A DNA stretch of 64,000 nucleotides, from contig JAFREE010000080.1 in NCBI GenBank assembly GCA_019400425.1, positions 1 to 64,000 of the forward strand. Reading direction: 5' to 3'. Positions 3,826-64,000 of this stretch are shown piece by piece (position 1 is the first letter of the stretch; every line of letters starts with the position of its first letter). A program made the translations under genes and the position numbers. Under the pieces are notes generated by a model. It saw only the letters and a list, made by a program, of their open reading frames with translations. It did not search any database and was not told the DNA's origin. Origin of the DNA: Hymenochaete sp. R1. Its lineage: Eukaryota > Basidiomycota > Agaricomycetes > Hymenochaetales > Hymenochaetaceae.

Positions 3826-5473
3826 TCAGCTAATGAAGTGTACGCATGATCGATAGACATACCTTTCTTGCGCGCTGTCCAGATCTCCGAAGTTCATGTT
3901 ACTGAGTGTGTACGACTGAAAGTTTGTACCAATATTAACGCCGTGCTCAGCTGCCTCCTTCAGATTGAAGAACATCCGGCTTCCAAGGATGCACAACAAG
4001 GCTGGACTACCAAGTTCGGTTAGAACCACTGCGGCGATTTCCGACCGTAGAATATCTCCTAGCACGTTGAAGAGCGAACAGGCAATGGCACTGCGAGTCA
4101 ATTAGCCATGGGCAGCGTTGTGAAAAAAAAGTGACGGACGCGGCGAAATATATAATCTGGTCCAGAATGAGCACTCTCATGAGCCTGGAGCCACGGAAGC
4201 CATTCTGTTTCCAGAATTCATTGGCTTTGTATACTGCTAAGATCATAAGCAAAGCACCGAAGGCGAGTGGTAGAGCCCTAAATGAACATAAACTTTACTA
4301 TCCCGTGCCAAGAGCCCAGCAATACGAACCAGTCAATTACGGCGATATAAGCCGGGATTGTTTCGTTGTAAGCACAACTTGTGGTGTCATCTGCGAGTGC
4401 TATTACCACGACTTGCATCAACGAAATCATCAGTAAAAGTTTCTTAGAAGTGATTGCTTTACTCACCGTCTTGGACTATAGTGGTGTAAATCATAAGCGC
4501 AACTTTAACGGCCCCCTCCAAGGCCACAAAGATGTACAGGGCGATTGAGAGGCGTTTACCTGTTAGAGTTTAACAAGATAGGATGAAGATCTAAGAAGCA
4601 AGACGACGAACTGTTTTCGTAGAGTGCGAGAGTGCGAATCATCAAGACATCTGAGTGTATCGTCAGAAACCTAACTCCACTTTACTTGGACAGCCTCACA
4701 GTCAATTGAGATGATAGTTACGGCAACTTCATCAAGAAATGTGTTAGCGAGTGCAGCATAATATATTTTATCAAACTCACTTGATATATTGGCTAGCCAA
4801 AAGGTCAAACGACCTATCGGCGATGTCAGGCATGGCTTCAAAATATTTGATGATTCGTACACCTTTGGATGCGTCAAGGCCGGGTGATTAAACACACTTC
4901 TGAAGAACGTACTCACATATTTAGCCCTAAATTGTACTTCTCGCCTGATAAACGATTCAAAGAAGTTGAGCGACGCTCCCTAGCGCAGTAAGTAAAAGAG
5001 ATCATATACCAACGATAGAAAACAGAGCTCCGAGGATTCCTGTGTACCGATTCTGTGTCAAGCTTTGAGAAGTGATACACATCTCCAGCGGTAGTAACGC
5101 ACCAAGAAGTACACTATTTTTGAAGTGTTCGTCGGAGCGAACTGATCGATAGCTATGAGCATCATCATATCATATTTAAAGAAGAACGGACCCAAAAATA
5201 TTTTTTCTGGCTCAAAGTGATTAGCTGATATCCAGATACCAGAATTTTCGCCGCACACCTCTTGATCAAGCGTGCATACTGAAAAGATAGCGATGTAAAA
5301 TCCAATATGCTTATGACGGGTTGAGCTCACGCACAAGAGTCAAAGATTAATGCAGTTGCCAACGCTACGTCGAGATATGTGCCATCCATTCCGCTTTGCA
5401 CCCAAGCAGGGACGTCGTCCGCGTCAAGAGTACCAGCGACATCCCGTGCGAACAAAGAATCAGATGGTGCCAT
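3826..5473 (-). CDS. DUF6533-type seven-helix membrane protein, copy A
   Basis: Member of the basidiomycete-expanded membrane family whose N-terminus matches DUF6533; the molecular function is unknown. The start is ATG at 5473 (MAPSDSLFARDVAG). Exon 1 is 139 nt (5335-5473), ending in helix 1 at ALIFDS. The next exons read LCTLDQE, KKYFW, FAPTNTSKIVYFL and NRYTGILGALFSIVG. Later come FWLANIS, AVTIISIDY, VLMIRTLALYEN and the cytosolic block LCILGSRMFFNLKEAAEHG. A 2-nt exon (GT, 4861-4862) is needed to reach CRLTFW in frame, but the preceding exon is shorter than in sister copies and its donor (GTTTAT) is weak, so this is the least certain such case. The C-terminal tail is unclear: splicing at 3887 may end the protein within a few codons of DLDSAQE. 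Confidence 0.8.
4861..4862 (-). other. Probable 2-nt micro-exon of copy A
   Basis: The minus strand reads CCAAAG|GT|GTACGA and is needed to open CRLTFW. The upstream exon end is less clear than in the other copies. Confidence 0.5.
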
Positions 5474-5513
5474 GGGTGATAGTGATCTGGATGCATTGCC
5501 AGCACACGGTGAC

Positions 5514-5524
5514 CTATATAAATA
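5514..5524 (-). promoter_or_regulatory. TATA element of copy A
   Basis: The minus strand reads TATTTATATAG about 42-50 bp upstream of the ATG at 5473, the same distance as the TATA elements before copies D, E, H and I. Confidence 0.5.
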
Positions 5525-7346
5525 CGAGCTACAATCATGGGCGCATCTTCACATTTCAGCCTTACCGAAAAGTGTTCTCCCTCTCCTATCGCGCATCAAA
5601 TAGAGGCGCCCTTTTAGATTGATGTTGATGCTTGCACGATAAGGTTTGGATATGACTGGCCACAGCTCTCGAACCCGATAGGATAGCACGTCTTTCTCAG
5701 AGTACGCTCATTCATAGCCATGATCGAGCGGGAAAATAGCAGGCCGATAACAAGGGAAAGACTAGAGGCAAAGATGCCACCAGAAAAGTGGCGACCTGCT
5801 TGTTAGTTGAAGACGATTATCAAGGATAGGGACTACTCACAAACTACACCATCAACTAGTCATCTTGTCCGCTCCGTGGTTCACCGACGCCCGGCAAAGT
5901 TTTTTCGTTGGGAACATTGATGCCATCAAGTCCGAAATCAGTACTAGTTGGTTCGCTTGAGGAGCGACGGGCATTCGAGAATTCACTTATTCACAGGACC
6001 TTCGAGCGCACTATGATGATTCATGTAGCGAGTGATGCAAGGCACGCTACACAATTGTTTTGACTTCAAATTGAATAAGTGTGGTGAGGATACGGAACAT
6101 GGGTAGGCGTCGACGAGCTCTGTCAGTCGACTTGGGCAGTTCACTGTCGATCATTACCTAATACCTTAGGGTGAGTGAAGTGAGTCGTTGCACGACTTGC
6201 ACCAGTACTTATCTCGAATCCTCACTAGAGCATCGACAGACTAAAAGGGCGCAAGAGCAGAGAAAAGTGCTTGAATACTCCCAGCGAAGCAACGATTAGC
6301 AAATCGTAGAGCGCAACAACGTCAACGCTTGCAATTGCGGCCTCTGGAACCCAGCTTACCCTTCGTTCATTTCATTGGGTTTGCTTCATGTGATGCTCAT
6401 TGACTCAGATACCCTCTTTCTCTCCGTGACACGACTACGCCCTCACCCAGCGGAAAGCTTAGCTTAGTGTAGAGTAGAAACATGTCACGAGGGTCTTTCG
6501 ATATGCAGGTGCGCCGCCGCGGGGGGGGGGGGGGGAGAGAGAGACTTATTCAAGGTCGTAGCACAATCGTAGGCCTTGCGTATGGACCATGCAAGTCGCA
6601 GGGCAGGGCGAAGGCGTCAAGATACCGTATATACAGATACGTTGGGCTCTTGTCACAGAATAGCGCGCCCAAGTGTTACTCGAGGGTTATCTTGAGCTCA
6701 TTCGTCTCGATTTCAAGCTTTCCGCTCGTTCCACCTTGAAACTGGAACATTCCAACATACACAGGACACTATAGCTGGTCGATAATTCCATGCGCAGGCC
6801 TCTTGAGTGGGTCATCCATGAGCTACAACTTCTCATAGGTTGCTATCATTCTCTATCACTTACCGCCGCCTCGCACCAAATATCACTTTGACTTCTGTGA
6901 TCTTTATCTCATTTGCCGCACTGGTGTCGGGTATGTATCACGAGGATAATGGGAACAAATGAGGTTGATAAAAAAAGGGCTACGAACGCGCGCGTCTGTA
7001 CGTTAATTGGTGCGCAAGAAAGGCGAAGAAGACTGTTTCCCCAGCGGGCGGCTCGATGCTTTCAAGTTCGCAGATTTTTGCATCGTACGTTTCTTTCTTA
7101 AGCCGAGGGATTGGAGTTATTATCGGTATTGCAACGAGAAAGAAGGGGGTGGCGAATGCTCTACATATCTAGGCTTAACCCATGACTAATGTCGAAGATG
7201 AATAAAATGAACAGTATCTAAGATCGGCATGTATCAGATACATTGACTATTGCTTTACCCCCTCATGGCACTCATGACTTCAGATACGCCGTTCGAGGTC
7301 CGTCGGTTTTATGCCCTCAGCGAAGCATACACTTGGGTAAGTTTCT
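5525..7346. other. Intergenic between copies A and B
   Basis: No gene recognised in about 1.8 kb. It contains a run of 15 G at 6521-6535. Frames here are short and unlike their neighbours. Confidence 0.45.
6521..6535. repeat. Poly-G run (15)
   Basis: Fifteen consecutive G followed by a short GA stretch. It is a mononucleotide repeat prone to length error in sequencing and to slippage in the cell. Confidence 0.95.
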
Positions 7347-9059
7347 TCAACTGTTGCTAACAAATACTTTAGCCTCGGTAGACGAATCAAGACCATGAAC
7401 TCACAGTTCCTCTTCATTATTTGGCCCGCCAAAACGTATGCTGCTGATTACAGGTGGGCCAGCCTCGTCGTTCGTTCGTTCGTGAAGGGAAACCTCTCCT
7501 GCTTCTCTTAAATTGAAGAACATCCGACTGCCAAGAATGCATAGAAGTGTCGGGCTCCCCACAACAACCAATGCTTTATACGCTTTGAATCCTGAGAGGC
7601 CTACCACGTCTCCCAAAATTGCGGAAACAGAGCACAATATTGTGCTTTTTCCAATGTGAGGGCTGTGTATCACAAGAGTGCAGGCGCACTTACGCAAAGA
7701 AATATATAACCTGATCAGTAATGAGAACCTTCATGAGCTGTGAATCGCGAAAGACCCTTAGCCTCCAATACCCCCGGGCTTTGATCAAGGCGAGTATGAA
7801 AAGCAATGATCCAAACGCGAGAGGAAGGAGCCTAAATAAACCGTCAGCTAGAAATGGCAGAAGCAGAGATGTGCGACATACCAATCAAGAACATAAATAA
7901 AAGTCGGAAAACGATTCATTGTCGCACAAGACGTTGCGTCCTTTGCCAGTACAATAACTTCAGCTAAATGATAGAGCTCAGGGCGCTTCCAAGGAAGTAA
8001 GACTGAGTAATCCTCACCGTCATCACTAGATGTCCCATAGATCGTAAAAGTGGCCTTTGAAACAGCTTCAAGGCCTAGGATGATAAAAAGCACCCTCGTT
8101 ATTATAACATCTATACTTCCGTCAGCTGCAGACCCAAGTGCATATCATAACAACCACGTGCCTTTGTTGCACAGAGCTCGAATCCTTATGGTTAGAATAT
8201 CTGACCGAAACAAATTAAATCCGCAGAAAGATAATTCTGAGAACCTTACAGTCAAAGGCGATGATTGTTATTGCGTCTATCGTCATTGTCAATATTTTAG
8301 GGTGCTTGAAAAAGCAAGATTTGCTTTTGGCTCACATGAGAGGTCCGGAAGCCACCTGTATAATTTACCTATGGAGAAAACGGCGCGTGGATATGAGTAG
8401 GGTTTTCCGGCATTTCGATATCGGCGAATTCACACCTATGGGAAAGAGAGAGGTGGGGTCCATCTTTAGTTGTTGAATACCTCAAAGAATGTAAACTCAC
8501 TGAGTTGGCGATGCATTGAAGCGGGCATCTGCAAGGAAAAGAAAAAGTTTACTCACTGCGGGACTCTACTTTCCCGAACGCTTACGCACTAAGCACTTGT
8601 ATTATAGATCCGGTGATGCCGCCGTAGCGATTCTGTGGTGCATTTAAGAACGGAATGCGTAGCGGTATCCATTGTTAGACTCACCAAGAAGTAAATGATC
8701 TTAGCAGCGTTTAGCGGAGCAGACTGAATCAAAGTATATCAGCAACGGGTGTTATCGAATCCGGGAATGACGAACCCATAGATATTTGATCTGACACCGA
8801 ATGATCAATGAAGTCAGTCTGCACAAGCTAAGCTCGAAAATGAAGAACTTACCTCTTTGTCGAGTGTACAGACTAAAGCGCGTTAGAGAGGAATAAATTT
8901 GTAAGAAAGAGATTTCTCACTTGAATCATAAACTAATGCAGTTGAAGCGGCAGTGTGAAGAAGACCTAATGCCATGTTACCTGCTACCCATCCATGAATA
9001 TCAGCCGATGATATGGGTCCAGCGTCTTCTCGACGGGTGACGGAAGTGTTGGATAACAT
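7347..9059 (-). CDS. DUF6533-type seven-helix membrane protein, copy B
   Basis: The start is ATG at 9059 (MLSNTSVTRREDAG). Exon 1 is 139 nt (8921-9059) and ends in ALVYDS. Following exons read ICTLDKE, IKYLW, SAPLNAAKIIYFL and NRYGGITGSIIQVL. A 28-nt exon ends in FNASPTQ, then a 2-nt exon (GT, 8434-8435) joins it to CKLYRWLPDLS; skipping the 2 nt breaks the frame. The last large exon carries LCILGSRMFFNLREAGE. If the strong GTGAGT donor near 7402 is used, a final small exon gives LNS and stop at 7347; if not, the protein stops at 7401. The family is membrane-bound with unknown function. The intron-exon plan matches copies C-J. Confidence 0.85.
8434..8435 (-). other. 2-nt micro-exon of copy B
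   Basis: The minus strand reads CCATAG|GT|GTGAAT. It joins FNASPTQ to CKLYRW in frame. Same position in the protein as in all sister copies. Confidence 0.75.
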
Positions 9060-10012: not shown

Positions 10013-11826
10013 CTAGGCTTCTCCGGACACGATTTCGATAGAAGTATCGCCGGCGAAGCCTCTGGCCACTGGAACCTCTCCAACCGGACTTGAGCTGCAA
10101 CTTAAAATATATGCTCAGCCATAGATTGTCGATCGATGATATGACTCACTGCTCTCCTTCACGTTCATGGTTCGGCTCATCAAAACGAATGCTGCTGACC
10201 GTCGCCCGATGTGAACCAACATTTGTTCCTTCGTTGAGGCCAGCCTTCCCTGCTTCCTTCAAGTTGAAGAACATCCGGCTTCCAATAATGCACAAAAGTA
10301 AAGGATTTCCTGCCGCATTTAGCAATAATTGCACGCTAAGCTGTGTAGATTCCCCTTCGTTGCCTAACATTAAAAGGACGGTGACGATTATGGTCCTTGA
10401 TCTGAGATGAGGACAGTAACACAAAGACGCAAACGAAACGAAATGAAGCATACACGGCAAAGTATACGATTTGATCTGTTATGAGAACCTTGACGAGCCG
10501 TGGTCCACGAAATTTCTTCGCCCTCCAATATTCTGTCGCCTTGATCATGGCCAGAACGAGAAGTAATGAATCGAACGCCATAGGAAGGCCCCTATGCAAA
10601 TGTATCAATAAGCAGCTCGAAAGAGACTGTCAGTATCCGGCATACCAATCGAAATAGAAGAAGACAATAGGGATCCCTTGCGTAAGAGCACATGACGTGG
10701 TGTCATTTGCTAGACCAACAATCTCGACTACCGATCATTGTTAGCATTACTAACGAGTACACCTAGTGTGTGAATGGATTGCACTTACCACCCTGCGCCA
10801 AAGTAGTATAAATCATAAAAGCGGTTTTGGTGATTGCTGAAAGAATCAATGAAATGTAGAGGACGATGGAAATCTTCCTCTCTGCATTTATATCTGTGAC
10901 CCGCGGGAAGAGAGATATACTAATAGCCGCGCACCTTTATGATACAGGGCCAAAACCCTAACCGCCAGGATATCTGATCGAAGAGGTTAGGACATTGCCA
11001 TGCTTCACTTCGAATCCTCACATTCGATAGTGATGACAGTGATCGAGTCTGCTCTATGTTTGAACGCATGGACAGAAATGAATTCACTTTTACTCACAAG
11101 AAATAAGAGTAAGCCAAACATATAATTGACCTGGTATGATGATATCAATTACACCTCCTTCAGTCATTCATTCGCGCCGTACGCACACCTATAATCACTC
11201 AATATGTTTCAAAGTGTTTCGAAATGCAAATTACTGACTGGATCAGCGATGCATTGAAGGTCCTTTCTGTAAAACGTGTTTAAATTAGAAACAAAAAATC
11301 AACTATATGACGTACTTAAAATGTTTGCCATCGAACCGGCGATGCCAACATAGCGATTCTGATAAGGATTTTCTGTCAGACGTGCCAAAGCCGCAATGAA
11401 GCGAATCTCAACGATGAACGCACCAAAAAGTAAACGATTTTGGTCATTTTCAAAGGAGAACTCTGTTGGGGGGGGGGGGGGAGACTTTGTTAAAGGCCCG
11501 CGGATAGCTCGACTCAATAAGATCTCACCCAGAAATATTCGATCTAACATCCATGCTCAGAGGAACGTCATGAAAAAGAGTCCATAATCGCACTTACCTC
11601 TTTGTCCAATGTACGGACTGACGAGGATGAGGGATGATATTTATTACATTGCACATCACTCACTGGAATCGTATATTAGCATGGTTGCTACTACCGTTGA
11701 AAGGTATCCTTGAATAACAGAGCCTTGTACCCATACGGACACGTCGTCTTCGGGTAACGCGTCAGAGACACCTTGCAGGGTGCTGGAATTCATGGTGGAT
11801 GATGAGTTGGCTTCCGGTAGCGACAT
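10013..11826 (-). CDS. DUF6533-type seven-helix membrane protein, copy C
   Basis: The start is ATG at 11826 (MSLPEANSSSTMNSS). Exon 1 is 163 nt (11664-11826), 24 nt longer than in most copies because of a Ser-rich N-terminal extension, and ends in MLIYDS. SSPLKMTKIVYFL follows an intron whose 3' polypyrimidine tract is a pure run of 14 C (G on the plus strand, 11468-11481). A 28-nt exon ends in FNASLIQ, the 2-nt exon GT (11187-11188) follows, then CQLYVWLTLIS. The C-terminal exon has LCIIGSRMFFNLKEAGKAG. The last exon, 10013-10094, restores a tail (GFAGDTSIEIVSGEA) like those of D and E. Unspliced, the frame would stop at 10146. Confidence 0.85.
11187..11188 (-). other. 2-nt micro-exon of copy C
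   Basis: The minus strand reads TTATAG|GT|GTGCGT. The two bases complete a Gln codon from the upstream exon and supply the first T of the Cys codon TGT in CQLYVW. Skipping them shifts the frame. Confidence 0.75.
11468..11481. repeat. Poly-G run (14) inside copy C intron
   Basis: On the gene strand this is 14 C directly before AACAG, so it forms the polypyrimidine tract of that acceptor. Length variation here could alter splicing. Confidence 0.9.
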
Positions 11827-18792: not shown

Positions 18793-20540
18793 ATGCTATC
18801 CAACACTACTATTGCCCTTCGGGATGTCGCATTCCCCATTCCACCGGATGCTGTGTATGAATGGGTAGGATTAGTCATCGTTAACAGGTACATATGCACT
18901 ATGGTAGCATCTGCTCTAATATACGACTCTTGTGGGTACCTTCCTTTCTGACGGTTGAATAGTCTAATTTCCCTCAGTATGTACCTTCGACAAGGAGGTA
19001 CGTGAAGGCACTCGTATAGTATACAGCTGATCTTTCCTTTACTCTTACCAGGTCAAATATTTCTGGGCAAGTTCTTCGGCGTCCTCGTAACCTCGCACTC
19101 TACTGACACACATTGGTACAGTTCGCCCCCCTTAACGTCACCAAATGCATCTATTTCTTAGTGAGCCCCTTTATGATATACGTTTTCAACCCATGCTAGA
19201 CACCACGTAGAATCGCTACGTTGGCATTGTTGGCTCCGTATTGTCCATATTTGGTCCGTCAGACAAGTAGAACAAAGTTCACAGATTGGGCTTAAGGATT
19301 TCGCAGTGGAATCTTTTGATTCAACGGTCTTCCAGTGCGTGTACCTCCTCTCAAGGCTTCTTGAGACTGATGGCTGTTCCTAGATGTGGGTTCTAAGACA
19401 CTGGTTGCTTTGAGGTAGATTTTACGCAGCTTCTAGGTAGATTTTACGGATGGTTTTCTGACATTTCCTGTGAGTGAAAGCACCCTTTCTCTCTCTTCTG
19501 AATGCCCGGTTGAATCAGTAACAGACTGGATCACCGTCATTACTATCGATTGTAAGTTCCTTGATGCCGCTATAGTGCCCTCACCAATTTGTTTAGATGT
19601 TTTGACCGTCAGAGTCCTGGCTTTGTATTCTAAAGGTGTGTTTGCGCATCTTTGTCTTTCGTTTTCAAAACATTTGCCCACGGAAGAACAGAAAAGAAAC
19701 TCTCGATTTTTCTTTATTCCATACTTGGCTTTGAAGCCGCTGCAAAAATAGCCCTATTAATTTACATTACTCTGTTCGACGATAGTAAGTTGCCTACTTT
19801 CCTTATGAAACTTCGCTTCCACTAACAGTTTACAGTTATGGCCATTGGTCTCGCAAGGAATAGGACCTCTTGTGCCGATGGTAATGCTGCCGAGACGTAT
19901 ATCTATGCTCTTGATTGGTATGTCACACTTTAAATATCTTTTACACATCTCATTAATTGGATAGGATCCTTCCTATTGTATATGGCCTCTTGTTGTTGGT
20001 TTTGGCCCTGATCAAAGGCGTTGAATTCTGGCGTCTAAAGACATTACACGGTTCCCGTCTTGTCAAAGTCCTCATAACAGACCAGATTATGTACTTTGCC
20101 GCGTGAGTCGTCTTCGCTTTATTTCTTCACTTATCTTACGCAAGGTAAAGGGCCATAATAATTTCAATGTTTGCCATTTTGAGCGACGCGGATGAGTCTC
20201 CGAAATCCATAGTGCAGATTCTATTATCCTCCGTGGGGAATCCTACGTTACTGTGTATCCTTGGTAGCCGGATGTTCTTCAATCTCAAAGAAGCGGGAGA
20301 AGCAGGACTCAACGAAGGTACGAACGTGGGCTCCCATCTGAGCCACTCAACGGTCAGCAGCATTCGTTTCGACGAACCTGTTAATGGAGGCAATCAGTGA
20401 GTCCATGAATCGACATTTTCTTCTATATTACTATCTGAGAATTTCTCGACAGTAGCGACTCACAATCCATCGGAGATGTATCGGTCGGTATTGGGTCCCT
20501 GACGGGCGCGTCCATCGCAGGAACTTCTACAGAAGTTTGA
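18793..20540 (+). CDS. DUF6533-type seven-helix membrane protein, copy D
   Basis: The start is ATG at 18793 (MLSNTTIALRDVAF). Exon 1 is 139 nt (18793-18931), exon 2 is 20 nt (18978-18997, LCTFDKE) and exon 3 is 15 nt (19052-19066, VKYFW), the last followed by a GC donor (GCAAGT at 19067). Then FAPLNVTKCIYFL, NRYVGIVGSVLSIF, a 28-nt exon (19307-19334) ending FDSTVFQ, a 2-nt exon AT (19384-19385) and CRFYGWFSDIS from 19437. Later exons encode TVITID, VLTVRVLALYSK, an ILGFEAAAKIALLIY helix and LCILGSRMFFNLKEAGEAG. The tail ends GSLTGASIAGTSTEV. The acceptor before CRFYGW is duplicated 22 nt upstream; only the downstream one avoids a stop. Confidence 0.9.
19384..19385 (+). other. 2-nt micro-exon of copy D
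   Basis: The sequence reads CCTAG|AT|GTGGGT. CA+A gives Gln and T+GT gives Cys. Direct joining without the AT gives CAG TAG, an immediate stop. Longer alternative exons starting at the same acceptor hit TAA after three codons. Confidence 0.8.
19413..19448 (+). repeat. Duplicated splice-acceptor segment in copy D
   Basis: AGGTAGATTTTACG occurs at 19413-19426 and again at 19435-19448. Each copy carries its own AG acceptor. Use of the first would read into an in-frame TAG. Confidence 0.85.
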
Positions 20541-23840: not shown

Positions 23841-25575
23841 ATGCTATTCAACACCACCATTGCACCACGAGACGTTGACGGGTTTATACCCCCGGATGAG
23901 GTGTATGAATGGGTAGACACATATAGTGTCGAAGGATACCTAATAACGGTGGTGACGTCTGTGCTAATTTATGATTCATGTGAGTATTATTTCTCTTCAG
24001 TGGCGGGATCCTCTAATGTACTTTAGTATGCACCTTCGACAAGGAGGTATGTGAAATTAATCAAGCACATTTCTATTATTCACGACAATTTGATCAGGTC
24101 AAATATTTCTGGGTACGCCTTGAGAATTCTTGTCGACACCCATAACCTGAGAAGGCTTGGAACAGTTTGCCCCTTTCAGTATCACTAAGATGGCTTATTT
24201 CTTGGTGCGTAATGTAGCGACATGCTCCTTGATTTCAAACTGAGAATGTCACAGAACCGCTATGTTGGCATTGTCGGGTCGATAATGCGCATATTGGGTA
24301 CGTCAGATTCGGTGAAAGGTTTATGAACGAGGGTTAATGGAACCTATAGAGAACTCTTTCAATTTAACATTATCTGAGTACGTGGTCCGCATCTCGATGC
24401 ATTTGAAGATGACTTATTGACCATAGATGTGCGTCCTTTGGTGTTGTATACTCTATGGCAATAATCACATGTGTGCTGTAGGTAAATTGTACACTTGGCT
24501 ACCTACCATATCATGTGAGTGAAAGCAGACAGTTTCTGTCCACACATTGACGATAACTTTAGACTCGATCACTATCATCACTATCGACTGTAAGGTTTTA
24601 GATGATACCGCTAAAGTGCTCTGACCGATTCGAGTAGATATTTTAACCATTAGGGTGTTGGCTTTGTACTATAAAGGTGCGCGTGCATATCGTTTCGCTT
24701 TTGAACGTTCTATTCATAGAAAAGCAGAGAGGAAGATTTCGATTGTTCTTTATGCCTTGCTAGGTCTTGAAGCCGTCGCAAAAATGGCACTGGTGATTTA
24801 CGGTACTTTAGTTGAGGACAGTAAGTTGTTTTCCTTCTTCACGCGTCACTATTTCTACTAATCAACTATAGTCGTCGTTGTCGGTCTCGCAAAAGGCGTC
24901 ACTTTTTGTGCCAGTAAAAATCCACTTCGCCCATTTTTATATGTCCTTGATTGGTATGTCGTAAGCTTTGGTAATTGTCACGCAACTCATCCTTTGTATA
25001 GGGGTATTCCACTCGCATATGGTCTGCTACTCTTGGTCCTGGCTCTGGTCAAAGCTGTCGAATATTGGCGTCTGAAGACGTTTCACGGGTCACGGCTTGT
25101 CAAGGTTCTCATAACGGACCAGATTATGTATTTTGCCGTGTCAGTGTCTCCCTCTATCATCACCACACTGTTCTAATACTGGAAAAAGGGTTATACTAAG
25201 TTCGGCTTTCGAAATATTGAGCAATTTCGATACGACATTGCTATTCACAGTGCAATATCTATTATCTGGCGTAGGCAACCCTACGGTCCTATGTATCCTC
25301 GGCAGCCGGATGTTCTTCAATGTCAAAGAAGCAGGTGAAGCCGGCGTTAATGAAGGGACGAACGTCGGCTCCTACCCCAACCTCCCTACCATCGCCAGCA
25401 TTCATTTCGATGAGCCTAACAATGGGGGCGGCCAGTGAGTGCATGCAGCTACTTTCTAATGAAGGTCGATTATGACAGCCTCGACAGAAATGATTCACAG
25501 TCCATTGGAAATGAAACAGCCGGCTTTGGCTCTTTGACGGGCTCGTCCATCGCTGTCGCCTCGGAGGAAGTGTAA
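23841..25575 (+). CDS. DUF6533-type seven-helix membrane protein, copy E (reference model)
   Basis: The best-resolved copy. Fifteen exons: 23841-23979, 24027-24046, 24098-24112, 24166-24204, 24255-24297, 24350-24377, 24427-24428, 24482-24514, 24563-24589, 24638-24676, 24728-24820, 24872-24953, 25002-25139, 25189-25434 and 25488-25575. They sum to 1032 nt (343 residues) with every junction in frame. The DUF6533-type N-terminus covers about residues 20-90 (VLIYDS, LCTFDKE, VKYFW, NRYVGIVGS). Further helices include ITIITIDY, IVLYALLGLEAVAKMALVIYG, GIPLAYGLLLLVLALVKAVEY and VLITDQIMYFAV. A cytosolic block LCILGSRMFFNVKEAGEAG and a Ser/Gly-rich tail close the protein. The seventh exon is 2 nt. 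The function of the family is unknown; a receptor-like or transporter role is speculation. Confidence 0.92.
24427..24428 (+). other. 2-nt micro-exon of copy E
   Basis: The sequence reads CCATAG|AT|GTGCGT, with flanking introns of 49 and 53 nt. GA+A gives Glu and T+GT gives Cys of CKLYTW. Skipping yields GAG TAA. A 14-nt alternative exon ending before GTGTTG would also keep frame in this copy, but sister copies exclude that solution. Confidence 0.78.
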
Positions 25576-38860: not shown

Positions 38861-41009
38861 TCATTTTGACAGATTTCGCCTCTTCCTATAACTAATACTA
38901 CAAGGGTCCTGCGGCAGAACAATCATGGACTGCGCGTAATCGATAACAATCAGTATTCAAGCTCTAGGAAGCACGACCATGACTCACATGGTAGTTGTTT
39001 TCCGGGAACGGAACGTCCAATCGTAACTCAAGCTTTCGGATGATCATAGAGATCACCATACCAAGCTGCAAATATGCGAACTAACACGCCGATCAAGATT
39101 AATCAGTCATCCGAAACTCTCGATAACATTAAACGCCCGAGACTCACCTGTTCTCCAATACACCGATGTCTACCCGCTCCGAACGGCTGATACGGACTAT
39201 CCGTGCCCTTACTCACAGCTCCAAATCCGTAATCAATCTTCTCACCACCGACGTCTTCATACGCATTGAACGCCTGAGCAGCTATGCCATTTGGATCACT
39301 CCATCTCTTCGGGTCCCATTTGTAGGGGTCCTTCCAGATGAGCGGGTCCAACTGCGATAATCCAGGCGCTGCGACGACGTAATGCCCCGCAGGTACCACG
39401 TACGCGTTCTCGTTCGATCTGGACGTTGAAATTGGCGAGGCAAGAGTAGGAGGAACGGGTGTGTCGGAAATGACCTTGCGCATGAGACTGTGGATGGGAG
39501 GATGCATGCGCAATGTCTCGCGGATGACAGAGTCTAGCACCGGTAAGGCTCTAAGCTCTTCGTAGGTCATTTGACGGAAATCCCCTGATTGCCCGGTACC
39601 GAATCGCTCAACTTGTTCCTCGTAGAGTGCATGTCTAGGCCAACCGAGCGTTAGTGTCCGCCCTCAATTGCGAGTGAAATCACTCACCCGACATCAGGGT
39701 TCTGGGCGATCCTCAAAAGTGCCCAGGTCCCCGTTGCTGAGCTTGTATGCTGTCCGGCCATGAGAAGAGCAATCATAAGATGAGCTATCTCATGTTCCGC
39801 CAGAGACGTCCCATTCCTATACCGTTGTTGAAGCAAAGACGCGATGAGGTCGTGCTCATCCTATCAGGAGAGTTAGTTAGCTTATTGGATTGTACTGGGT
39901 TCATACACCACTCACTTCCGCACCGTGATTAGCTTGAGCTTGTCGTTTGTGGATGATGTCGATGTAGAAGTCTCTCATGGCTTTCTGAGCCCTGTCTCTC
40001 TTCCGGTATCTCTCGATTGGAAGATGCGGGAAGAACATATTCAAGGGCGTGAACCCTCCATCCAAATCTGCATAGTACCGTGCAAACTCCTTCGTCAACC
40101 CCTCGCGAACTTCCTTCCCCTGCAAAGTCTTCGAAGCCGTCAAGATTGTCATCTCGCTCAACATTTTCAAGGGATGGAACGCGCCCCACTCGCCCGGTTC
40201 CGAAACTAAAGCATCATTGGCCTGATGTTGGTAGACGCGGAAGGCAGGATCTGTATGGATAAAGGCAGTGATCTCGTCCTCCATCATACCGATGTAAGCA
40301 CGGAAATTTTCGAGCGTGAGTCCGGCCTTGATGAATTTCTTCTGCTCCATGAAGACGGCGTTGGGGACGTCGAAGATGACGTCGTGTCCAAAGACCGGGA
40401 CAGTGAGGTTCTAACGATTCAGAACGGACGTTAGCGCCGTTGGTATGATTAGATCCTAACAAAAGAACAGGCATCGGACCTTGTAGGCATCTTCGGCGTT
40501 CATATGTACGGGTTTCCCTCCAGTCACGAAGTTGTTTCCCCTCGGCCCCAAAGCGACCGTCATACGCCTTCCGAGAAGAACGAAGGTGAATATATCACCA
40601 TGCTGCAATATTTCAATGGCGGGACAAATATTCTTTATTGAATGAGACGCACCTTTTCGCGACACCTGCTCAAGAATCCGATGGGATCATTCCCGTACTC
40701 GATGGCAGAGCCGACAATGGGAAGCCAATGGAACACTCGTGGGGGTTGAGATGAATCGCCAGGGATAACCTATCCCCATTGCTATCAGAGCGAATCATCC
40801 TGAAACATCGTTTGGACCCTCACCTTTTGTGCGAGAGCATGAAGGAGGAGGATGACGAGAGGCAAGAGGCCTAAAGACAGAAGAGGGCGACTACGGATGA
40901 CATCCAGGATAAGGCTGATGTGTGAGGTGACATCATTGAGAGCTGATCCGTAGCCTTGGGTAGTGACGACGCCGTGTGATAAGATGGCTGTCGACGAGTT
41001 GAAGTCCAT
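38861..41009 (-). CDS. ERG11: Lanosterol 14-alpha-demethylase CYP51
   Basis: ER cytochrome P450 that removes the 14-alpha methyl group in ergosterol synthesis; target of azoles. Eight exons, complement(join(38861..38929,38988..39065,39148..39634,39688..39860,39916..40410,40480..40602,40653..40769,40824..41009)), give 575 residues, all in frame. An N-terminal membrane anchor (LLSLGLLPLVILLLHALA) is followed by PPRVFHWLPIVGSAIEYG, HGDIFTFVLLGRRMTVALG, the B-C region VIFDVPN then MEQKKFIKAGLT, the I-helix HEIAHLMIALLMAGQHTSSA, ExxR in VIRETLRMHPPIHSLMRK and the haem loop YQPFGAGRHRCIGEQ. The last exon adds SMIVLPQDPCSISYRKRRN. In the B-C region a Phe stands where fungal CYP51 usually has the Tyr known from azole resistance (C. 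albicans Y132). Confidence 0.95.
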
Positions 41010-43146: not shown

Positions 43147-44914
43147 ATGTTGCCCAGAACCTCCCTTGCTCTCCGGGACGTCGTTGGAGTGGTACCGTCA
43201 GACGAGGTGCATGGGTTGGTGAAGGTCAATTTGATACTAGGCGTTCTCTACACCATCCTAGCAACCGCGCTGGTATACGATTCATGTGAGTACCCTCCTT
43301 ATTGAAATAAGAATGTCTTTGACGTGCTTCAGTCTGCACGCTCGACAAAGAAGTAAGCAACTTAGTTTCTTCACTTCATCGTTGATTATAACTTTATCAT
43401 TACCAGGTCAAATATATATGGGTATGTCTCCCTACGTCAAAAGCTTGCTTTTATCGACATAATCCGATCCAGCCTGCCCCGCTGAGCTTCACCAAGATTG
43501 TTTACTTTCTGGTAAGCATTCTTATGGAATTCGTGCCTCGTTCCGCTCTTGAACATAACACAGAATCGCTATATGGGTATCGTTGGATCGATACTACAAA
43601 TACTCAGTGCGTTGGTGTACGAAAGTTTGGGTTTCAACAGTATGGAAACGCTCTATCGTCCCTACAGACGTCTGCCGCTTCAACGTTTCACCGCTAGAGT
43701 GCGTATATCATTTTACGACGCACACACTTGCTTATAACTCCTTACCCAAACAGGTGTAAGTTCATCGACGTCGAGATACTGGAGGCATCATCTAAATACA
43801 GGCCCCCCAATCTGTAGGCAAATTGTATAGGTGGCTTCCAAACATCTCATGTGAGTCAAATTATAATTTTTGTAGAAATTAAGGCCCTGGATGCTGACAG
43901 CGATATTAGACTCAACAACCGTCATTACTTTCGACTGTGAGGATTACAAGTCTTTCTTGACGAGGCTCTGACTTTCAAGAGTAGATGTCTTAACTATGCG
44001 GGTTCTGGCTCTGTATAACAAAGGTGCGTAATCGCTTTCTGCGCAAGTGCTAGTATGTCCCTAAGAAAAGGTTAGAAGCGAGATTTAAAACCATACTCTT
44101 CACCGTTCTGGGCCTCGAAGCTGTCGCGAAGGCCACTTTTATGATTTTCACAACAACTACTGATAGCAGTGAGCATAGCCCTCTTTTTCTTAAACAAGAA
44201 GGCATGCTAAGATCATCCTAGCGGAGGTCATTGTCCTGGCAAGGAATGTCACGTCGTGCGCCACCATGGATAAGCTTCCAGCATTTATATACATTATAGC
44301 ATGGTGAGGGGCAGATTTCTACTGCCAATTTCGATGCTTATCAATCTGTTTAGGCTTCTGCCTCTCGTATTTGGACTGTTTCTTTCTATATTAGCTTTAC
44401 TCAAAGTGATTACATTCTGGAGAGTAAGAGCCACGCGCGGTTCACGGCTCATAAAGGTTCTCATGACCGATCAGGTTCTATACTTATTTGCGTAAGTATG
44501 TTTCCCCTTCTGTAATATAATACAAGGCTCACCTCGAGAGAAGGACAATACTATGTTTCGTTTTCGCAATTTTGGGGGACGTAGTAGGGTTTCCAGCTCT
44601 TGAGGTGCAAAATGTGTTGGTCGTTCCGGGAAGTCCGACGCTCCTGTGCATACTCGGTAGCCGGATGGTTTTCAATCTCAAAGAAGCAGGGGAGGCGGGA
44701 TTCGACGAAGGAACAGATGTCGGATTTTATCACCCCGAAGTCAGCAGCATTCGCTTTGACGAAGTAAACGACAGGGGCGAACCGTGAGTCTATACCTTTG
44801 ACTTTTCTGTCGAGGCTGAAATTTGTCTTTGATAGCAATATCTTTGAATTGGTCGAAAAGAAGGTAGATATAAGCCCTGCTGGCGGGACACCTATCGCGT
44901 TCACTTTTCGATAA
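43147..44914 (+). CDS. DUF6533-type seven-helix membrane protein, copy G
   Basis: The start is ATG at 43147 (MLPRTSLALRDVVG). Exon 1 is 139 nt (43147-43285) ending ALVYDS. Next come the short VCTLDKE-type exon and VKYIW, then PAPLSFTKIVYFL and NRYMGIVGSILQIL. The sixth exon (NVCRFNVSPLE) is one codon longer than its counterparts. The 2-nt exon GT (43754-43755) is bounded by strong sites (AACAG and GTAAGT) and leads into CKLYRWLPNIS. Later exons give TTVITFD, MRVLALYNK, VLGLEAVAKATFMIF and LCILGSRMVFNLKEAGEAG, where one Phe of the usual FFNL is Val. The tail is Lys/Glu-rich and ends PIAFTFR, unlike the Ser/Gly tails of D and E. Confidence 0.86.
43754..43755 (+). other. 2-nt micro-exon of copy G
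   Basis: The sequence reads AACAG|GT|GTAAGT, the best flanking sites of the set. GA+G gives Glu and T+GC gives Cys. Direct joining reads GAG CAA ATT GTA TAG, a stop. Confidence 0.82.
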
Positions 44915-45825: not shown

Positions 45826-47451
45826 ATGTTGTCCGATGCCGCCTTTGCCATTCGAGATGTTAATGAAACACTACCTCCGGATGAAGTATTGGAATGGGTA
45901 GAGGAAAGTATCGTGAATGTGTACCTGTTCATGGTGCTGGCATCTGCCTTGGTCTATGATTCCTGTGAGCACCATTTTCTCTGTCAATTTAATTGTCTAA
46001 CTTGAACTCGTCTCAGTTTGCACAATCGACAAAGAAGTATGTATGTGGAAGTCATTGAGCATTCTCTTGCTGACTGTGCTTGCGTTGTTGCTAGGTCAAG
46101 TATTTTTGGGTATGCCGCTGAGTTCGCCAGATTTGCATGTTCTTAATGCAAGTTGAACCAGTTTGCCCCGCTAAACACGACCAAAATCATTTATTTTCTG
46201 GTCAGTTTTCTGACAGATTGCCTTCTTTGTCGAAGCTCACTATTGATGCAGAATCGTTATGTCGGCATTGTCGGATCAGTACTCGCAATACTTAGTTTGT
46301 CACAGCAATTGAAAGAATCTGGCTTGAAATTAATGAACTCCTCAGGTGTTTCGTTTAATTTATCGTTATTTGAGTGTGTATATCGTAATTCCATACTTTC
46401 GAAGGCTAATTGTTACTCTCAGATGTGCGTCAGTCGCAGACTCGAAGTTTAAAATATCGGCATTGAAGCTACATTTTGTAGGCGAGGTGTACAGATGGAT
46501 TCCCAATCTTTCGTGTACGTGAGTTCAAGACAAGCGCTTTTCATTTGCTAAGATCCGCAACAGATGCCGTCACTATTATCACCATCGACTGTAAGGCTTC
46601 CGGACGGTGTCACTGTAGCTCGCTAAGCTCCTCAATCAGATATCTTGACAATAAGAGTTGTGGCCCTGTATCATAAGGGTACGCGGTCATATCTTTTGCG
46701 CTCCTCCATATGCTAATGAAAATGCAGAAAAATGCATATCTGCCGTTCTCTACACCATTCTAGGATTTGAAGCTATTGTAAAAGTCATTATGACGATTTA
46801 CGGCACGTTAGCTATGGGGTGTAGGTGGTACATTTTGTCGGTGTTCTTTTACCTTATTTACTGACTTTTATGAAAACCGCCGACAGTTGAGATAACCGGT
46901 CTGGCAAGGGACCGTACATCCTGCGCTATCAGTAATGCTCTCCCGACATTCATCTATGCTCTGGACTGGTATGCCAAATATTTTTGTCGTGGTGAGTAGC
47001 TGAAGTCTTGTATAGGGGCCTTCCTCTTGGACTTGGATTTGTACTTTCGGTTCTAGCCCTAATTAAGGCCATGGAATACTGGAGGGCAAAAGATTTCCAT
47101 GCTTCGCGTCTTGTCAAGGTTCTCATGACAGATCAGATTATGTACTTCGCCGCGTAAGCCTATCTGAAAAATTCGCGATGCGATACTCATCCATTCAGAA
47201 GGGCGATATTGTGCTCGGTTTTCGCAATTCTGGGAGACGTGGGGGCTTTTGACCAGTTTACAGCGGAAGCTGTATTTGATTGTGTGGGGAGTCCTACGCT
47301 CCTCTGTATCCTCGGTAGCCGTATGTTCTTCAATTTGAAGGAGGCCGGAGAGGCAGGAGTTAACGAAGGGACAAATGCTGGATCTCATTGGCATCTTCCG
47401 ACGACTAGTAGCATTCATTTTGACGGACCAAGCACCGAGGAACGGCAGTAG
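45826..47451 (+). CDS. DUF6533-type seven-helix membrane protein, copy H
   Basis: The start is ATG at 45826 (MLSDAAFAIRDVNE). Exon 1 is 139 nt (45826-45964) ending ALVYDS. Then come CTIDKE, VKYFW, FAPLNTTKIIYFL, NRYVGIVGSVLAIL, a 28-nt exon ending FNLSLFE, the 2-nt exon AT (46433-46434) and CEVYRWIPNLS. Helices include ILTIRVVALYHK, TILGFEAIVKVIMTIYG and FIYALDW followed by GLPLGLGFVLSVLALIKAMEY (each split by introns). The C-terminal exon has LCILGSRMFFNLKEAGEAG and ends EERQ at 47451. The site where D and E have a GTGAGT donor reads CAGTAGGT here, so the last exon may be lost or replaced by an immediate stop; the tail is shorter. It is convergent with RRP43. Confidence 0.86.
46433..46434 (+). 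other. 2-nt micro-exon of copy H
   Basis: The sequence reads CTCAG|AT|GTGCGT. GA+A gives Glu and T+GC gives Cys of CEVYRW. Without it the following exon is read in the wrong frame. Confidence 0.78.
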
Positions 47452-49649: not shown

Positions 49650-54340
<4,691 letters not shown>

Positions 54341-56512: not shown

Positions 56513-56898
56513 TGTTGCAGATAGAGCTTATCATTATTTTTTCTTCCTTCTCCCTACTTTCAATCATTGATGATGCTAAATCTATAATTCCCCTCTCAAT
56601 ACCTGATTCTGTGCGCATTTAAAAGGATTATGTCTGTTTCAACTTCTTTTATTTCAACTCGACCATGTTGCTCTGCTGTTTTCCCGTATTTTCTTGAAAG
56701 TGTAAGTGACACAATTTTATTTTGCTCACTCTGCATAATACGTCCCATCCGCCATCGGGCATCCAGGTAGTAGCTTATCCAGGGTTGTGATACCGAATGA
56801 GCAACGTAACACATTCTCCTTATATATATATTGCGCCGGAAAAAAAATTACGCTACATATCCACATTTTTTTTGTTTGCACTCCAGATTCCAGCGCAT
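56513..56898. other. Convergent spacer, TAF4 and ASADH
   Basis: About 390 bp of 3' flanks; contains short TA and A runs. No gene seen. Confidence 0.5.
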
Positions 56899-58198: not shown

Positions 58199-59819
58199 GT
58201 TGGTTCTCCGCTGCAGATACGGGAGTAATAAAACCCGCAGCGAGCAGGGAGGAGGCGGTTGACGATGGAAGTAAGGAAGGAAGAGTAACCTCGTTCGATG
58301 ACTCTGGATTTGGCTGTATGCGGTCGCGTGCCACTTTGATTACATCATCACAAATAAAACATTTCGCAGCTTTTCAATCTCTGAGACTTCTTCAGCCACC
58401 ACCCTCCACCTTCTGTCCTTCGTCGTTATATGATTCAACAGAGCACTTGATTCGTATATTGGCATGGCCTAGCCGTTAATTTGTGCTTAGAAAACTGTGC
58501 TTTCCAGTACCATCTTCGGCAGAGGTTTGTCGTAAGGGCACTCGCTTTCCTCCGAAGGTATTACAGGGAAATCATCATACTGTCTTTATGGCTCCAAGAC
58601 TCTTCGTCAACGTCAACTACGACTTTATAACCCCAGTTCCTGTACGAACACTGCCCAGGTAATCCAGGTAAGTAACAATCTGGGCTCAACCTGAGCCATT
58701 GTGACATTATTGACACGTTTTCTCACAGCGGGACGAACTCTTTGACCACCAACTTCGATTGTTCTTCTGAGTATCTTGAAACACCTACGAAGATTCTCTC
58801 GGCATTTCACCAGTCTACCGGATCTACTTCTAAACGAAATTTATCAAGCCTCGGGCCTTCAAGCCAATAATATCAACGCACCCTCTCCATGGTGCCTTGT
58901 TCCATTGGTTCAACTCCAGGTTTCCCAATGAGCTTTTTATAACCCTCGACGGAAGCGACCACTCTCCAAGGTTGTACTGGAAGTGTTAACAGAAAGTCCC
59001 GCATGATCGACCTGTATAATTTCCTTGGCCAACGTCATACAAAGCTGACAATCAATGGATATATGTATATCACAGGTGCGTAGAACGAACGGAGGACTCG
59101 GATCTTACTGCTACGGATCGAGTTCGAGTTTGAGACAGGGCAAAACGATCGAACCTAAGAATAGGAAGCTCCTACCCTTTCGTAAGAAGTTTGCTCAGGC
59201 TTGAAATAACGGGACAAGACTTCGACGTCTCTGTTGATCATGAATGTAAGTTTGTCACTTTACATTTCCGCGGTCGGCTTTTCCATCGACTGCGGCCACA
59301 CCTCTACTCGGAACTCTTTTTTTTGCCGTACAGCGGAGCCAGTCAAGAAAACGTTCACTACTTTTAGCATACCATGTCATGGTAGTGCTCGCATGCAGTG
59401 TTGTGCTGATATCTGCGGTACATGTACTCCACGAAATCGCTTCGAGAGTTTTTGATCCCCGTAACTTCCTCAAGATTCCTCGCTTCAAAATCACACAGCG
59501 CCCATACGATTAACAGTTGTATTTAAAGAACTTCGACGTGCTGGTGGAAGCGGAAGTGCACTACAGTTTTGTCTCTCACTCCACCTTTCACGTGAAATCT
59601 CCATGACCTTTGCTTCGACTAGTTTCCGCCGGGGAAATCGCACTCTTCTCGTAGCACTAGTACTGTTACATGGCCATCGTGATGGTCATCAAAACGCGTC
59701 TCCACGAAGGCAGCCCCTAACCAGACGGTCATAAACTCCTCGGGCGAAATCTAAATCTGCTTGTTAGGAGTATATATTAGTGAGTCACTTCCTTGCCTTC
59801 TAACATAACCTCTTTAGCC
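58199..59819. other. Intergenic between ASADH and copy I
   Basis: About 1.6 kb. No domain-bearing frame. The ASADH promoter is at the left and a TATATATTAG element at 59771-59780 at the right. Confidence 0.45.
59771..59780 (+). promoter_or_regulatory. TATA element of copy I
   Basis: TATATATTAG, 49 bp upstream of ATG 59820, at the same spacing as in copies D and E. Confidence 0.55.
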
Positions 59820-61615
59820 ATGCCCTCTGACCATTCTATCTCCAATCGAGACGTTGCGATATACGTCGATCCAAGTGAAGTACCCACCTGGGTCAAGGAG
59901 ACGTATGTCATTGGTTATCTCTTGATCAGTCTGACGACTGCTCTCATATATGATTCGCGTGAGTACCATAACAAATATGTAATTGCACGGCGCTATCACT
60001 ATCTAACGCCGCTGTTTCAGTCTATACATTTGATAAAGAGGTATGAGCTTTGCTATACTATCAGACCCATTTTGATTTATCCCTTTTCTTCGTAAGGTCA
60101 AGTACTTTTGGGTGCGTCTCACCACCTTTCTTCTAGCCTACGAGCTCCTGAAGTATGCTCCCAGATCCCGAAGGGAAGGTACATGACGAAAATGGTTTAC
60201 TTTCTGGTGCGTGATCCGTCACGGTGTCGAGCCTTGCCCGAACAAATGCTTAATCCGTTAAAGAATCGCTACTTGGGAATCATCGGTGCTGTTTTAAAAG
60301 TTGTTGGTGAGCGCACTCTTTCTTTCGAAGAACGGTACGGTCAATTCGAGTTTTCTCTCCAGAAAACTTTCTCAATATCACATTGACTACGTACGCCCGT
60401 TCTTTATTCATATTCATTGTGTCTCTTCCTAATTTACTCTAGTTGTGAGAAATCCTATGACATGTTGTGCCTCGCATAGTAATAAAATAACGGCAGGCCT
60501 AACGAGCAAGTGGATATCAAATACATCTTGTGAGTTTCTGGTTCATAACCGTCCTCCGGTTCTGCTTGACGCGGGGAATAGATGCCACTACGATACTCTC
60601 GATTGACTGTACGTCGGCCAAAGACTCATAAGCTGAAACCGGGATAACCTATCTTTACGACAGACATTCTGACACTCAGAGTGATAGCCTTGTGTCACAA
60701 TGGTACGGACTAATTCCGCCATTACTCTAAATTTAATAGTCTTATGGTCGCAGAGAAATGGATAACCTCCATCCTTTACACCATAATGGTTATCGAAGTA
60801 CTGGCAAAAATACCTTTAATGATATACGGGACCACACTACAACATGGTATGCTTGCTGGCAGCGAGAATACGCGTTGTTGCTTACCCCTATTTGCCAGAT
60901 GAGATTGTTGGTCTGGCCAAGACCGTGACCAGCTGCGCCGTGAAGAGCAGCCAGCCACTTCGTTCCGCGGTCGCCCTTCCCCCGTGGTTTTTCATCGTCG
61001 ATTGGTACGTTGCATCACTGATTAACATTCTCGGGATTAAGCTTAAAGTCTCTTCAAAGGTCCGTGCCGTTATCGTATGGAATGTTGCTACTCGTCATCG
61101 CACTCTTCAAAGCTACAGAATATTGGAGAATGAACGGGTTCCGTGGTTCTCGGCTGGTCAGAGTTCTCATCAAAGATCAAGTCATGTATTTCATGCTGTG
61201 CGTTGTGATTCCTTTTTCATCATCCGCCTAGTGTAGTAACCAAGTAATCAGTGCCTTCTCTTGCGCCGTTTTTACCATCTTAGGCGACAAGTACACCTTC
61301 GAATCATCGGTTTTGTCTGGTGCATTATCAGGACTGGGAAGCCCTTCACTCCAATGCATCCTAGGGAGCCGGCTTTTCTTTAATCTCAAGGAAGCTGCTG
61401 AGCATGGCGTCAATGAAGGAACGAACTGGAGCTCGCATACCGGTACCAACAGCGGAATCGAATTCGTAGTGCCGTCTAGCACAGACTCTCGTACACAGTG
61501 AGTGATATGTCACTTTTTGATCCTGACTGATTGGATTGTCTAATATTCCGTCAGGTCGCAGTCTGCCAACGAAAAGAATGACCGTAAAATTGCTGTAGGA
61601 GCTGATTCAGCTTAG
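59820..61615 (+). CDS. DUF6533-type seven-helix membrane protein, copy I
   Basis: The start is ATG at 59820 (MPSDHSISNRDVAIYVD). Exon 1 is 139 nt (59820-59958) with WVKETYVIGYLLISLTTALI. Then LYTFDKE, VKYFW, IPKGRYMTKMVYFL, NRYLGIIGAVLKVV, a 28-nt exon NFLNITLTT, the 2-nt exon TT (60445-60446) and CLTSKWISNTS. Helices and loops include ATTILSID, ILTLRVIALCHN, ILYTIMVIEVLAKIPLMIYG and the extracellular-type segment EIVGLAKTVTSCAVK. The C-terminal exon carries LQCILGSRLFFNLKEAAEHG, then a last exon ends KIAVGADSA. With copy J it forms a distinct subgroup (VDPSEVPTWVK, EVLAKIPLMIYG). Confidence 0.87.
60445..60446 (+). other. 2-nt micro-exon of copy I
   Basis: The sequence reads CTCTAG|TT|GTGAGA. 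AC+T gives Thr and T+GC gives Cys of CLTSKW. Without it the next exon runs to a stop (TGA) at its end. Confidence 0.78.
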
Positions 61616-62541
61616 GTATATTTGGATGTACTTAGCTCTGCAGCCGCGAGGCTTGGGATGAGAGGGCGTGGTTGGAATCCTATAGCTTAATATAAAAATT
61701 TATCATCGACCCGGTTTCGGTCTGATTCTGTATTTGACTTTTTGTACCAACAATTCTTGAAAGGAAGTTTATTTTCTTTGTTATAAACGCTCTTTACGAC
61801 GTTCCACTTTACTGCATGTATACTACATACCAATAGGCCCCATAATTCGGATTTTTTTTCGGCGCATTTCCTCGAACAGTCTTCGAGCCTTTTTATTATT
61901 ACGTAAGAAAGGATCGCCCTGCCTGCGTCCCCTGCCTCCGAGCCTCCGCGTCCCGGGCCCGGGCCCTCCGTCATGGTCCCTCTCCGTCTCGTTCAAACGA
62001 CAGCCTGCAATCATCTCCGAGCCTGCCAGTGACAACCACGATCAAATGTCCTATATACCTGATTTGATATCATGCTTGCCGAATAGTCAAAGCAATGCGT
62101 ACAGTCGCTCCTCCATAATGGCTTCACAACGCTCGAAGAATCGGAAAGTGCCGAGCAAGCATCGTCTTGTATCTCTTGTATCGCAACCGGTGCCAGTCTC
62201 GTATCCAGCGCCGCATCAATGGCATCATTAGTTTCATACTAAAGTAGCTTCAACGTACTTGTACGGTGAACTCGAAAGTCTCGGACATCACAAGGTCACG
62301 GCTTCTCGACGACCCTGTGAATATCCGTGTCTACGCCGGGAAGAAGCCTGCCCTCGAGTGCGCACCATTGTCACCATTCAAGTTGTCGCCAAACATGATG
62401 TTCATCAAAATCTTTGGTCACGATGGGCGCATCGATAGCAGACCGATTTTCCTTAACCAGTCCTCTTTTGTCTTTTGAGTAGGGTACTTATACTCGGGAC
62501 GTCGTCTCGTGTTTTGCCTGACTTCCAGACCACCTTCGCCC
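61616..62541. other. Spacer between copies I and J
   Basis: No gene recognised. Includes a GC-rich patch near 61920-61980 and short frames on both strands. Confidence 0.45.
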
Positions 62542-64000
62542 ATGTCGCCCGCCTTGGGTCATCCTCTGTCAGGGCGTGATGTAATTGTGTACGTTGATCC
62601 GAGCGAAGTGCCTACCTGGGTCAAACAAACCTACATTATCGGATTCGTTTTGGTCGGTTTGACGACTGCTTTGGTCTATGATTCAGGTGCGAGTTACATC
62701 ATGCATGGCAGACCAGATCGCGACTCGAACCTGTCTTTTTAGTTTGTACGTTCGATAAAGAGGTATGGCCGCTCTTACTTTACCCAATGCTTTCTTACAT
62801 CGTTTCTCATGAGGTCAAATATTTCTGGGTACGTTTCTCTTATACTCTTGTCGGAGAGGCCCTTACGTTTTGCCAGAATACCAGAGGGCCGGTTTTGACG
62901 AAAGTAGTATACTTTGTGGTGAGTGAGAAAGTCTTGTTTTCTCCTTCCATACACTGATTTTCTTGCAGAATCGTTACTTGGGCATTCTTGGTGCAGTGAT
63001 GAAAGTTGTCGGTATGCAGAACTTGATTAATTGAAGATTCAGATGATTAATACGAGCTCGTCTTCAGAAAATCTATTCAACATCACGTTGACTACGTAAG
63101 GCTCTATTGGTATATTCTTGTGAACGAGGCTCATATAATTGCAACCCAGTTGTAAGGCGCCCCACACAATCTTATTCCAATGCCCTGTTAATTTTAGCAG
63201 GCGTGACGAGCAAATGGATACACAATACGTCTTGTAAGAAGTCCTCTGCTGGACAAATTATTCCCTTCTCACCACGATAGCTAGACGCTGCCACGATCAT
63301 CTCCATCGACTGTGCGTTTTGAAAGTACAAACATCTAATTATGACGGCCCATGAGTGAAATAGACATTCTGACACTCAGAGTATTGGCATTATGCCATAA
63401 TGGTAACATTTAGTCTCACATTCTACGATTCGTTAGTAACCTAGCGGCTGCAGGAAAACGGATGACTATCGTACTCTACTCCATTGTGGTTATGGAAGTT
63501 TTGGCAATGGTCCCGTTAATGATCTATGGTACTGTGTTACAACACGGTACGTACACTGTTATAGCCTTCTGAGGTCGCTCATCTCTATTTATTAGATGAG
63601 ATTGTCGGCCTATCGCAATTTTTGACGAGCTGCGCTGTCAAAATGGACCGGCCGCTTCGCTCCGCAGTAGTCCTTCCTCCAATACTTTACATTATCGATT
63701 GGTATGTAACGTGATCAAGCTTCATCCTCGGACTTAATATTTCTACGAAGGTTGATACCGCTATCGTTTGGGGTCTTGCTGCTGGCCATCGCATTACTCA
63801 AGGCTACTGAATACTGGAGAACGAACGGATTCCGCGGATCGCGGTTGCTTGGAGTTCTGATCGAGGACCAAGTGATGTATTTCATGTTGTAAGCGCCGAT
63901 ACGTTCTTGATGCATTATTTATTCGTATACTAATTTTACTATAGGACGTTTTCTTGTGCCGTATTCACCATTTTGGGCAACAAATACACTTACAACTCGG
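62542..64000 (+). CDS. DUF6533-type seven-helix membrane protein, copy J (cut by window end)
   Basis: The start is ATG at 62542 (MSPALGHPLSGRDVIVYVD). Exon 1 is 145 nt (62542-62686), two codons longer than in copy I. Then VCTFDKE, VKYFW, the TKVVYFV exon, NRYLGILGAVMKVV, a 28-nt exon NLFNITLTT, the 2-nt exon TT (63150-63151) and CVTSKWIHNTS. Later exons give ATIISID, ILTLRVLALCHN, TIVLYSIVVMEVLAMVPLMIYG, EIVGLSQFLTSCAVK, ILYIIDW, ALLKATEYWRTNGFRGS and VLIEDQVMYFML. The sequence ends inside the last large exon, before the LGSR-FFNLKEA block. It is the closest relative of copy I, 0.9 kb upstream, pointing to a recent tandem duplication. Confidence 0.86.
63150..63151 (+). other. 2-nt micro-exon of copy J
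   Basis: The sequence reads ACCCAG|TT|GTAAGG with a strong donor. AC+T gives Thr and T+GC gives Cys of CVTSKW. Direct joining shifts frame and ends in TAA. Confidence 0.8.

Follow-up and report, generated by a model that had tools for sequence, protein, structure and literature searches.

The 64-kb window analysed here (the whole stretch of DNA, G000:C316:1-64000, from a genome of 27.8 Mb) carries nine copies of a DUF6533-type gene, labelled A to E and G to J. In each of them two coding bases can be placed directly before a conserved cysteine, between a predicted first intron of 49-65 nt and a predicted second intron of 47-65 nt (Table 1). The initial annotation had described this arrangement as AG-NT-GT, that is, an acceptor AG, the two bases and a donor GT, and we find this form with the bases it named in 9/9 copies; its positions were exact for A, B, C, D, E, G and J, but lay 10 nt off for H (placed at 46433-46434) and 2 nt off for I (placed at 60445-60446). 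The preceding exon measures 28 nt in B, C, D, E, H, I and J, as had been noted, and likewise in A, with 31 nt in G. Indeed, dropping the two bases breaks the frame in 9/9 window copies: in agreement with the earlier reading that skipping gives a stop or a frame shift, the protein would stop at once in B, D and E and early in G, and would continue in a shifted frame in A, C, H, I and J. Between the DUF6533 genes, on the minus strand at 39103-40410, lie reading frames which, by a motif, resemble a cytochrome P450; Rfam and tRNA scans of the 64-kb window gave no matches.

Table 1. Predicted two-nucleotide exons and their flanking introns in the nine copies of the 64-kb window.
Copy	Exon bases	Exon position	Strand	Intron 1	Intron 2	Remarks
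A	GT	4861..4862	minus	4863-4916	4814-4860	without same-length single-intron alternative
B	GT	8434..8435	minus	8436-8500	8369-8433	without same-length single-intron alternative
C	GT	11187..11188	minus	11189-11238	11131-11186	without same-length single-intron alternative
D	AT	19384..19385	plus	19335-19383	19386-19436	has single-intron alternatives
E	AT	24427..24428	plus	24378-24426	24429-24481	without same-length single-intron alternative
G	GT	43754..43755	plus	43699-43753	43756-43817	exon before of 31 nt; GC-donor alternative
H	AT	46423..46424	plus	46374-46422	46425-46481	GT-donor single-intron alternative
I	TT	60443..60444	plus	60391-60442	60445-60496	without same-length single-intron alternative
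J	TT	63150..63151	plus	63096-63149	63152-63200	without same-length single-intron alternative

The gene structure of copy E, modelled with a splice-aware protein-to-DNA aligner from the VKYFW exon to the GSRMFFN exon, comprises 11 introns, each of 48-61 nt, and in this model the AT sits between introns of 49 and 53 nt. Copy E, the only model scanned, matches DUF6533 (PF20151) with 24.4 bits against a curated cut-off of 24.1, and the match covers profile positions 22-46 only because the query left out the first exon. In a rough hydropathy scan of E the hydrophobic segments overlap and do not fix the number of helices, and no solved structure matches by sequence; the available text on another DUF6533 protein, SNB1, gives a prediction of seven helices with the N-terminus outside (PMC10949477). 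The conserved Cys directly precedes a hydrophobic stretch, with a second Cys in a loop further on; of 63 places where both positions could be scored, 59 have Cys at both. Many seven-helix receptors have a disulphide of this kind. By analogy, the conserved Cys may well pair with the second conserved Cys in the later loop of a putative seven-helix membrane protein.

The arrangement extends well beyond the window. The copy E protein matches at least 159 exon stretches genome-wide, and our sample, made up of 38 + 9 fetched stretches plus the window, yielded 75 gene places (66 unique and 9 added); all counts are lower bounds, as E-protein matches beyond the fetched stretches are not included. The two-nucleotide exon resolved in 71/75 places, 62 by script and nine wholly or partly by hand, with the bases AT in 40, GT in 23, TT in five, CT in two and GC in one. 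The four remaining places are L066, which has the AG-GT-GT signature next to an upstream exon that did not resolve, and L029, L010:3869 and L024:3568, which are fragments without the region; thus, among the 75 places examined, the unit is absent from no copy whose region resolved. The first donor is GT in 70 copies and GC in one (L033), the second likewise GT in 70 and GC in one (L032), while AG at both intron ends was built into how the copies were sought. The preceding exon is 28 nt long in 57 of the 65 copies in which it was measured, and the six unmeasured copies have an AG exactly 28 nt upstream. Intron 1 spans 47-89 nt (median 52) and intron 2 spans 47-81 nt (median 54; n=71). From these sequences it is very probable that at least 71 DUF6533-type genes carry, at one and the same site, a predicted constitutive exon of two nucleotides between two short predicted introns. 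The initial claim of a real two-nucleotide exon before the conserved Cys is thereby strengthened, with 71/75 places in its favour, no resolved exception, and 54/71 copies in which no single intron keeps both the protein length and the Cys. The family is clustered on few contigs (G000:C90, C305 and C316, with at least 75 gene places in 27.8 Mb), and 33 further matches to the DUF6533 profile lie elsewhere in the genome.

The flanking conserved exons join in frame only with two bases between them, or two plus or minus a multiple of three. The first of the two bases is a third codon base, and after GA, CA or AA it is a purine in 52/55 copies, which keeps Glu, Gln or Lys; the second starts the Cys codon in 70/71, with Arg in one (L012:5821). 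The foremost alternative is a single intron of about 100-120 nt, with its donor 2 nt downstream (GT or GC) and no two-nucleotide exon at all. We counted single introns in the vicinity of these sites by which neither the protein length nor the Cys is lost, bearing in mind that the seed query already includes the two residues that the micro-exon reading gives and that the expected length is therefore not independent. Such an intron is possible in 17/71 copies, with a GT donor in three (D, H and L009:2306) and only a GC donor in 14, G among them; in H the GT donor lies 2 nt downstream, and two routes exist for D, one through a GC donor and one through a GT donor, the latter with the acceptor shifted and one residue altered. 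In 54/71 there is none: 20 of these have some other in-frame single intron with a GT donor and five one with a GC donor, all of them changing the protein, and 29 have no in-frame single intron of any kind. The annotation had held that every window copy needs the two extra bases, which stands for A, B, C, E, I and J (6/9), but not for D, G and H, where a longer single intron is possible.

For the 17 copies with an alternative, it is intron length and the retention of AG-NT-GT that carry the case for the two-nucleotide exon. Regarding length, the joined span of both introns is at least 101 nt in all 71 copies, whereas the other introns of these genes (n=275) have a median of 52 nt and only 1/275 reaches 90 nt. 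Regarding the signature, AGNTGT with both halves of at least 44 nt occurs in 2.5% of dinucleotide-shuffled spans, so that 1.8 of the 71 would be expected by chance. Pairwise identity of the intron cores, taken over 63 of the 71 copies, has a median of 0.50 against 0.49 after shuffling for intron 1, and of 0.49 against 0.48 for intron 2: the cores are saturated, yet AG-NT-GT persists, which would not be expected within one long intron. We therefore regard a single intron as improbable, even though it leads the alternatives. The same cores were used to ask whether intron 2 is a duplicate of intron 1, an idea without support, since identity within genes is 0.535 and between genes 0.534 (63 copies).

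Could many of the copies instead be pseudogenes, with the apparent repair of the frame fitted to decaying genes? This is a tandem family with fragments, the region being missing from 3/75 places, and L012:5821 encodes Arg in place of the Cys; however, most copies retain open, conserved exons and canonical splice sites, and both the purine bias at the wobble base and the Cys in 70/71 speak against decay, so that we consider this very unlikely. A stwintron or zero-nucleotide recursive splice site, in which the inner part of a complex intron leaves first and no bases are kept, is the least credible of the three, for although two short introns do adjoin in a fungus and 23/71 copies read AG-GT-GT, with a donor directly after the acceptor, the other 48/71 (AT, TT, CT or GC) have no GT donor there, keeping no bases breaks the frame in 9/9 window copies, and acceptor AG and donor GT stand complete, 2 nt apart, with no splice signal interrupted.

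The two-nucleotide exon also accounts for copies that at one stage appeared to be without it. The aligner charges per intron and, in L043, L019:3197, L038, L033 and L019:6019, settled on models that save one intron. Reading by hand reveals the ordinary unit in all five, and we have withdrawn both the interpretation of the first four as one-intron copies and that of L019:6019 as bypassing the unit by a single 122-nt intron. In the order just given, their small exons measure 28, 30, 28, 28 and 27 nt, their first introns 60, 47, 51, 52 (with a GC donor, in L033) and 62 nt, and their second introns 54, 56, 55, 53 and 58 nt. As these copies carry the ordinary unit, the family offers no natural one-intron control, and the supposed losses of the unit, including tree labels based on the one-intron reading, were dropped. 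The nine hand-read copies among the 71 are these five and L059, L063, L064 and L067, all sought with the unit in mind. In addition, L009:9074 was modelled with a GC donor before its 28-nt exon, and the first intron of L044 is taken as 53 nt after correction, not 109 nt.

The copies of this family are old, to judge from the end branches of a tree of 60/75 places, which have a median of 0.49 changes per column, with five rows holding partly wrong models; six of the 66 places (models shorter than 170 residues) and the nine fetched later were left out of the tree. As no resolved copy is without the unit, it was probably present in their common ancestor, and inside the family we found no copy whose two bases run on into an adjacent exon. 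More distant DUF6533 loci (12, L047-L058) are hard to model: L047 has a phase-2 intron one base before the Cys and no second intron, and the other 11 do not settle where the bases lie. In one of these, L048 (G000:C304:193500-194800), the aligner places another two-nucleotide exon (GC), flanked by introns of 56 and 55 nt, a short way upstream of a phase-2 intron before the Cys. Tiny exons could thus have arisen more than once at this site, L048 being one such case. Scans of other genome contigs and of viral contigs returned no relatives outside this genome. Protein searches with residues 130-240 of copy E returned five proteins, seemingly unspliced or partial reading frames, and those with the 5' half as query gave no matches, so that neither search yielded a spliced relative.

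How does this compare with what is known? Ultra-short exons have been described, with 1 nt in Arabidopsis and in Fusarium, and the kind is not new. The remark in the initial annotation that they are known in plants is right, if incomplete, as a fungal 1-nt exon with transcript support was published in 2026 (PMC12940212). In the text available of that paper, exons of 2-5 bp are stated to have been reported in Arabidopsis, Drosophila and humans, and the 1-nt exon of the Fusarium gene CYP621A is inferred from the frame in a conserved motif, with transcript reads and an intronless relative alongside. Like our case, this is an ultra-short exon in a fungal nuclear gene, deduced from the reading frame; it concerns, however, one base in one set of orthologues (20 genes according to the abstract, 24 according to the discussion), whereas here, as predicted from DNA, two bases straddle the boundary between codons, a single genome has at least 71 such paralogues, and the family has no intronless copy. 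The 1-nt exons of plant APC11 and VPS55 (PMC4674806, PMC8831610) resemble ours in having been retained over long evolution. According to the available parts of these papers, they occur in one or few copies per genome, were tested with constructs or with RNA-seq and RT-PCR and, unlike here, have known counterparts in which a larger exon contains the base. Closer in setting are the P450 genes of Phanerochaete, a multigene family of a basidiomycete in which introns of 45-55 bp are frequent and exons can be tiny, although these small exons comprise 2-10 codons and the shortest given is 6 bp, against 2 nt here (PMC1184071, available sections). Stwintrons, too, bring together two adjoining short introns in fungi, removed consecutively by intron definition, but, as described there, a splice signal of the outer intron is broken up by the inner one, and the two leave no exon base between them (PMC12403724); here both predicted introns are complete, with two coding bases between. 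Among the literature matches listed, in which subscription journals are little covered, there is no report of such an exon for the DUF6533-type family, and no paper on an ultra-short exon kept through a whole paralogue family. Within a single genome, the same predicted two-nucleotide exon would be repeated in at least 71 diverged copies, a natural test set for the splicing of ultra-short exons. Which intron leaves first? How far does intron definition reach by itself? And why is the unit never lost here? These questions become testable in this family. There is also a practical side, in that automatic annotation would likely mis-predict many DUF6533-type genes at the conserved Cys.

As to mechanism, two complete introns 2 nt apart would leave no room for exon definition, and the view of the initial annotation that intron definition or stepwise splicing acts instead is a reasonable one. 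We posit that the two introns, about 50 nt each, are recognised separately, through intron definition, and leave in succession, since a distance of 2 nt would hardly accommodate two spliceosomes at once. Similarly, the authors who described the plant 1-nt exons argue, in the text available, for intron definition and successive removal (PMC4674806, PMC8831610). The order may be written in the splice signals: intron 1 has the better donor score (3.52 vs 2.33 for intron 2) and the better branch-point score (5.08 vs 4.63), which suggests that intron 1 is removed first. The branch-point-like scores count somewhat against the unit, since intron 2 (4.63 vs 3.71 after shuffling) falls below the other introns of these genes (4.98 vs 3.58). 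We also considered whether the two-intron unit acts as a family-wide splice switch, in which successive removal would give the receptor, and removal of the whole span at once a frame-shifted product. This seems to us a doubtful proposition with little probability; were it true, a single splicing factor with influence on the order could switch all the receptors on or off jointly.

Other features of these introns deserve a brief mention. Across the 71 copies, intron 2 has weaker branch-point-like scores than the other introns, and they lie further from the acceptor (median 20 vs 14 nt). C at donor position +4 is enriched in both members of the unit, at 30/71 for intron 1 and 35/71 for intron 2 against 58/275 for other introns (Fisher 7e-4 and 5e-6, respectively; the copies are related, so these p-values are indicative only). 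Lastly, intron 2 of copy D contains, just upstream of its acceptor, a repeat of the sequence with which the Cys exon starts (GGTAGATTTTACG).
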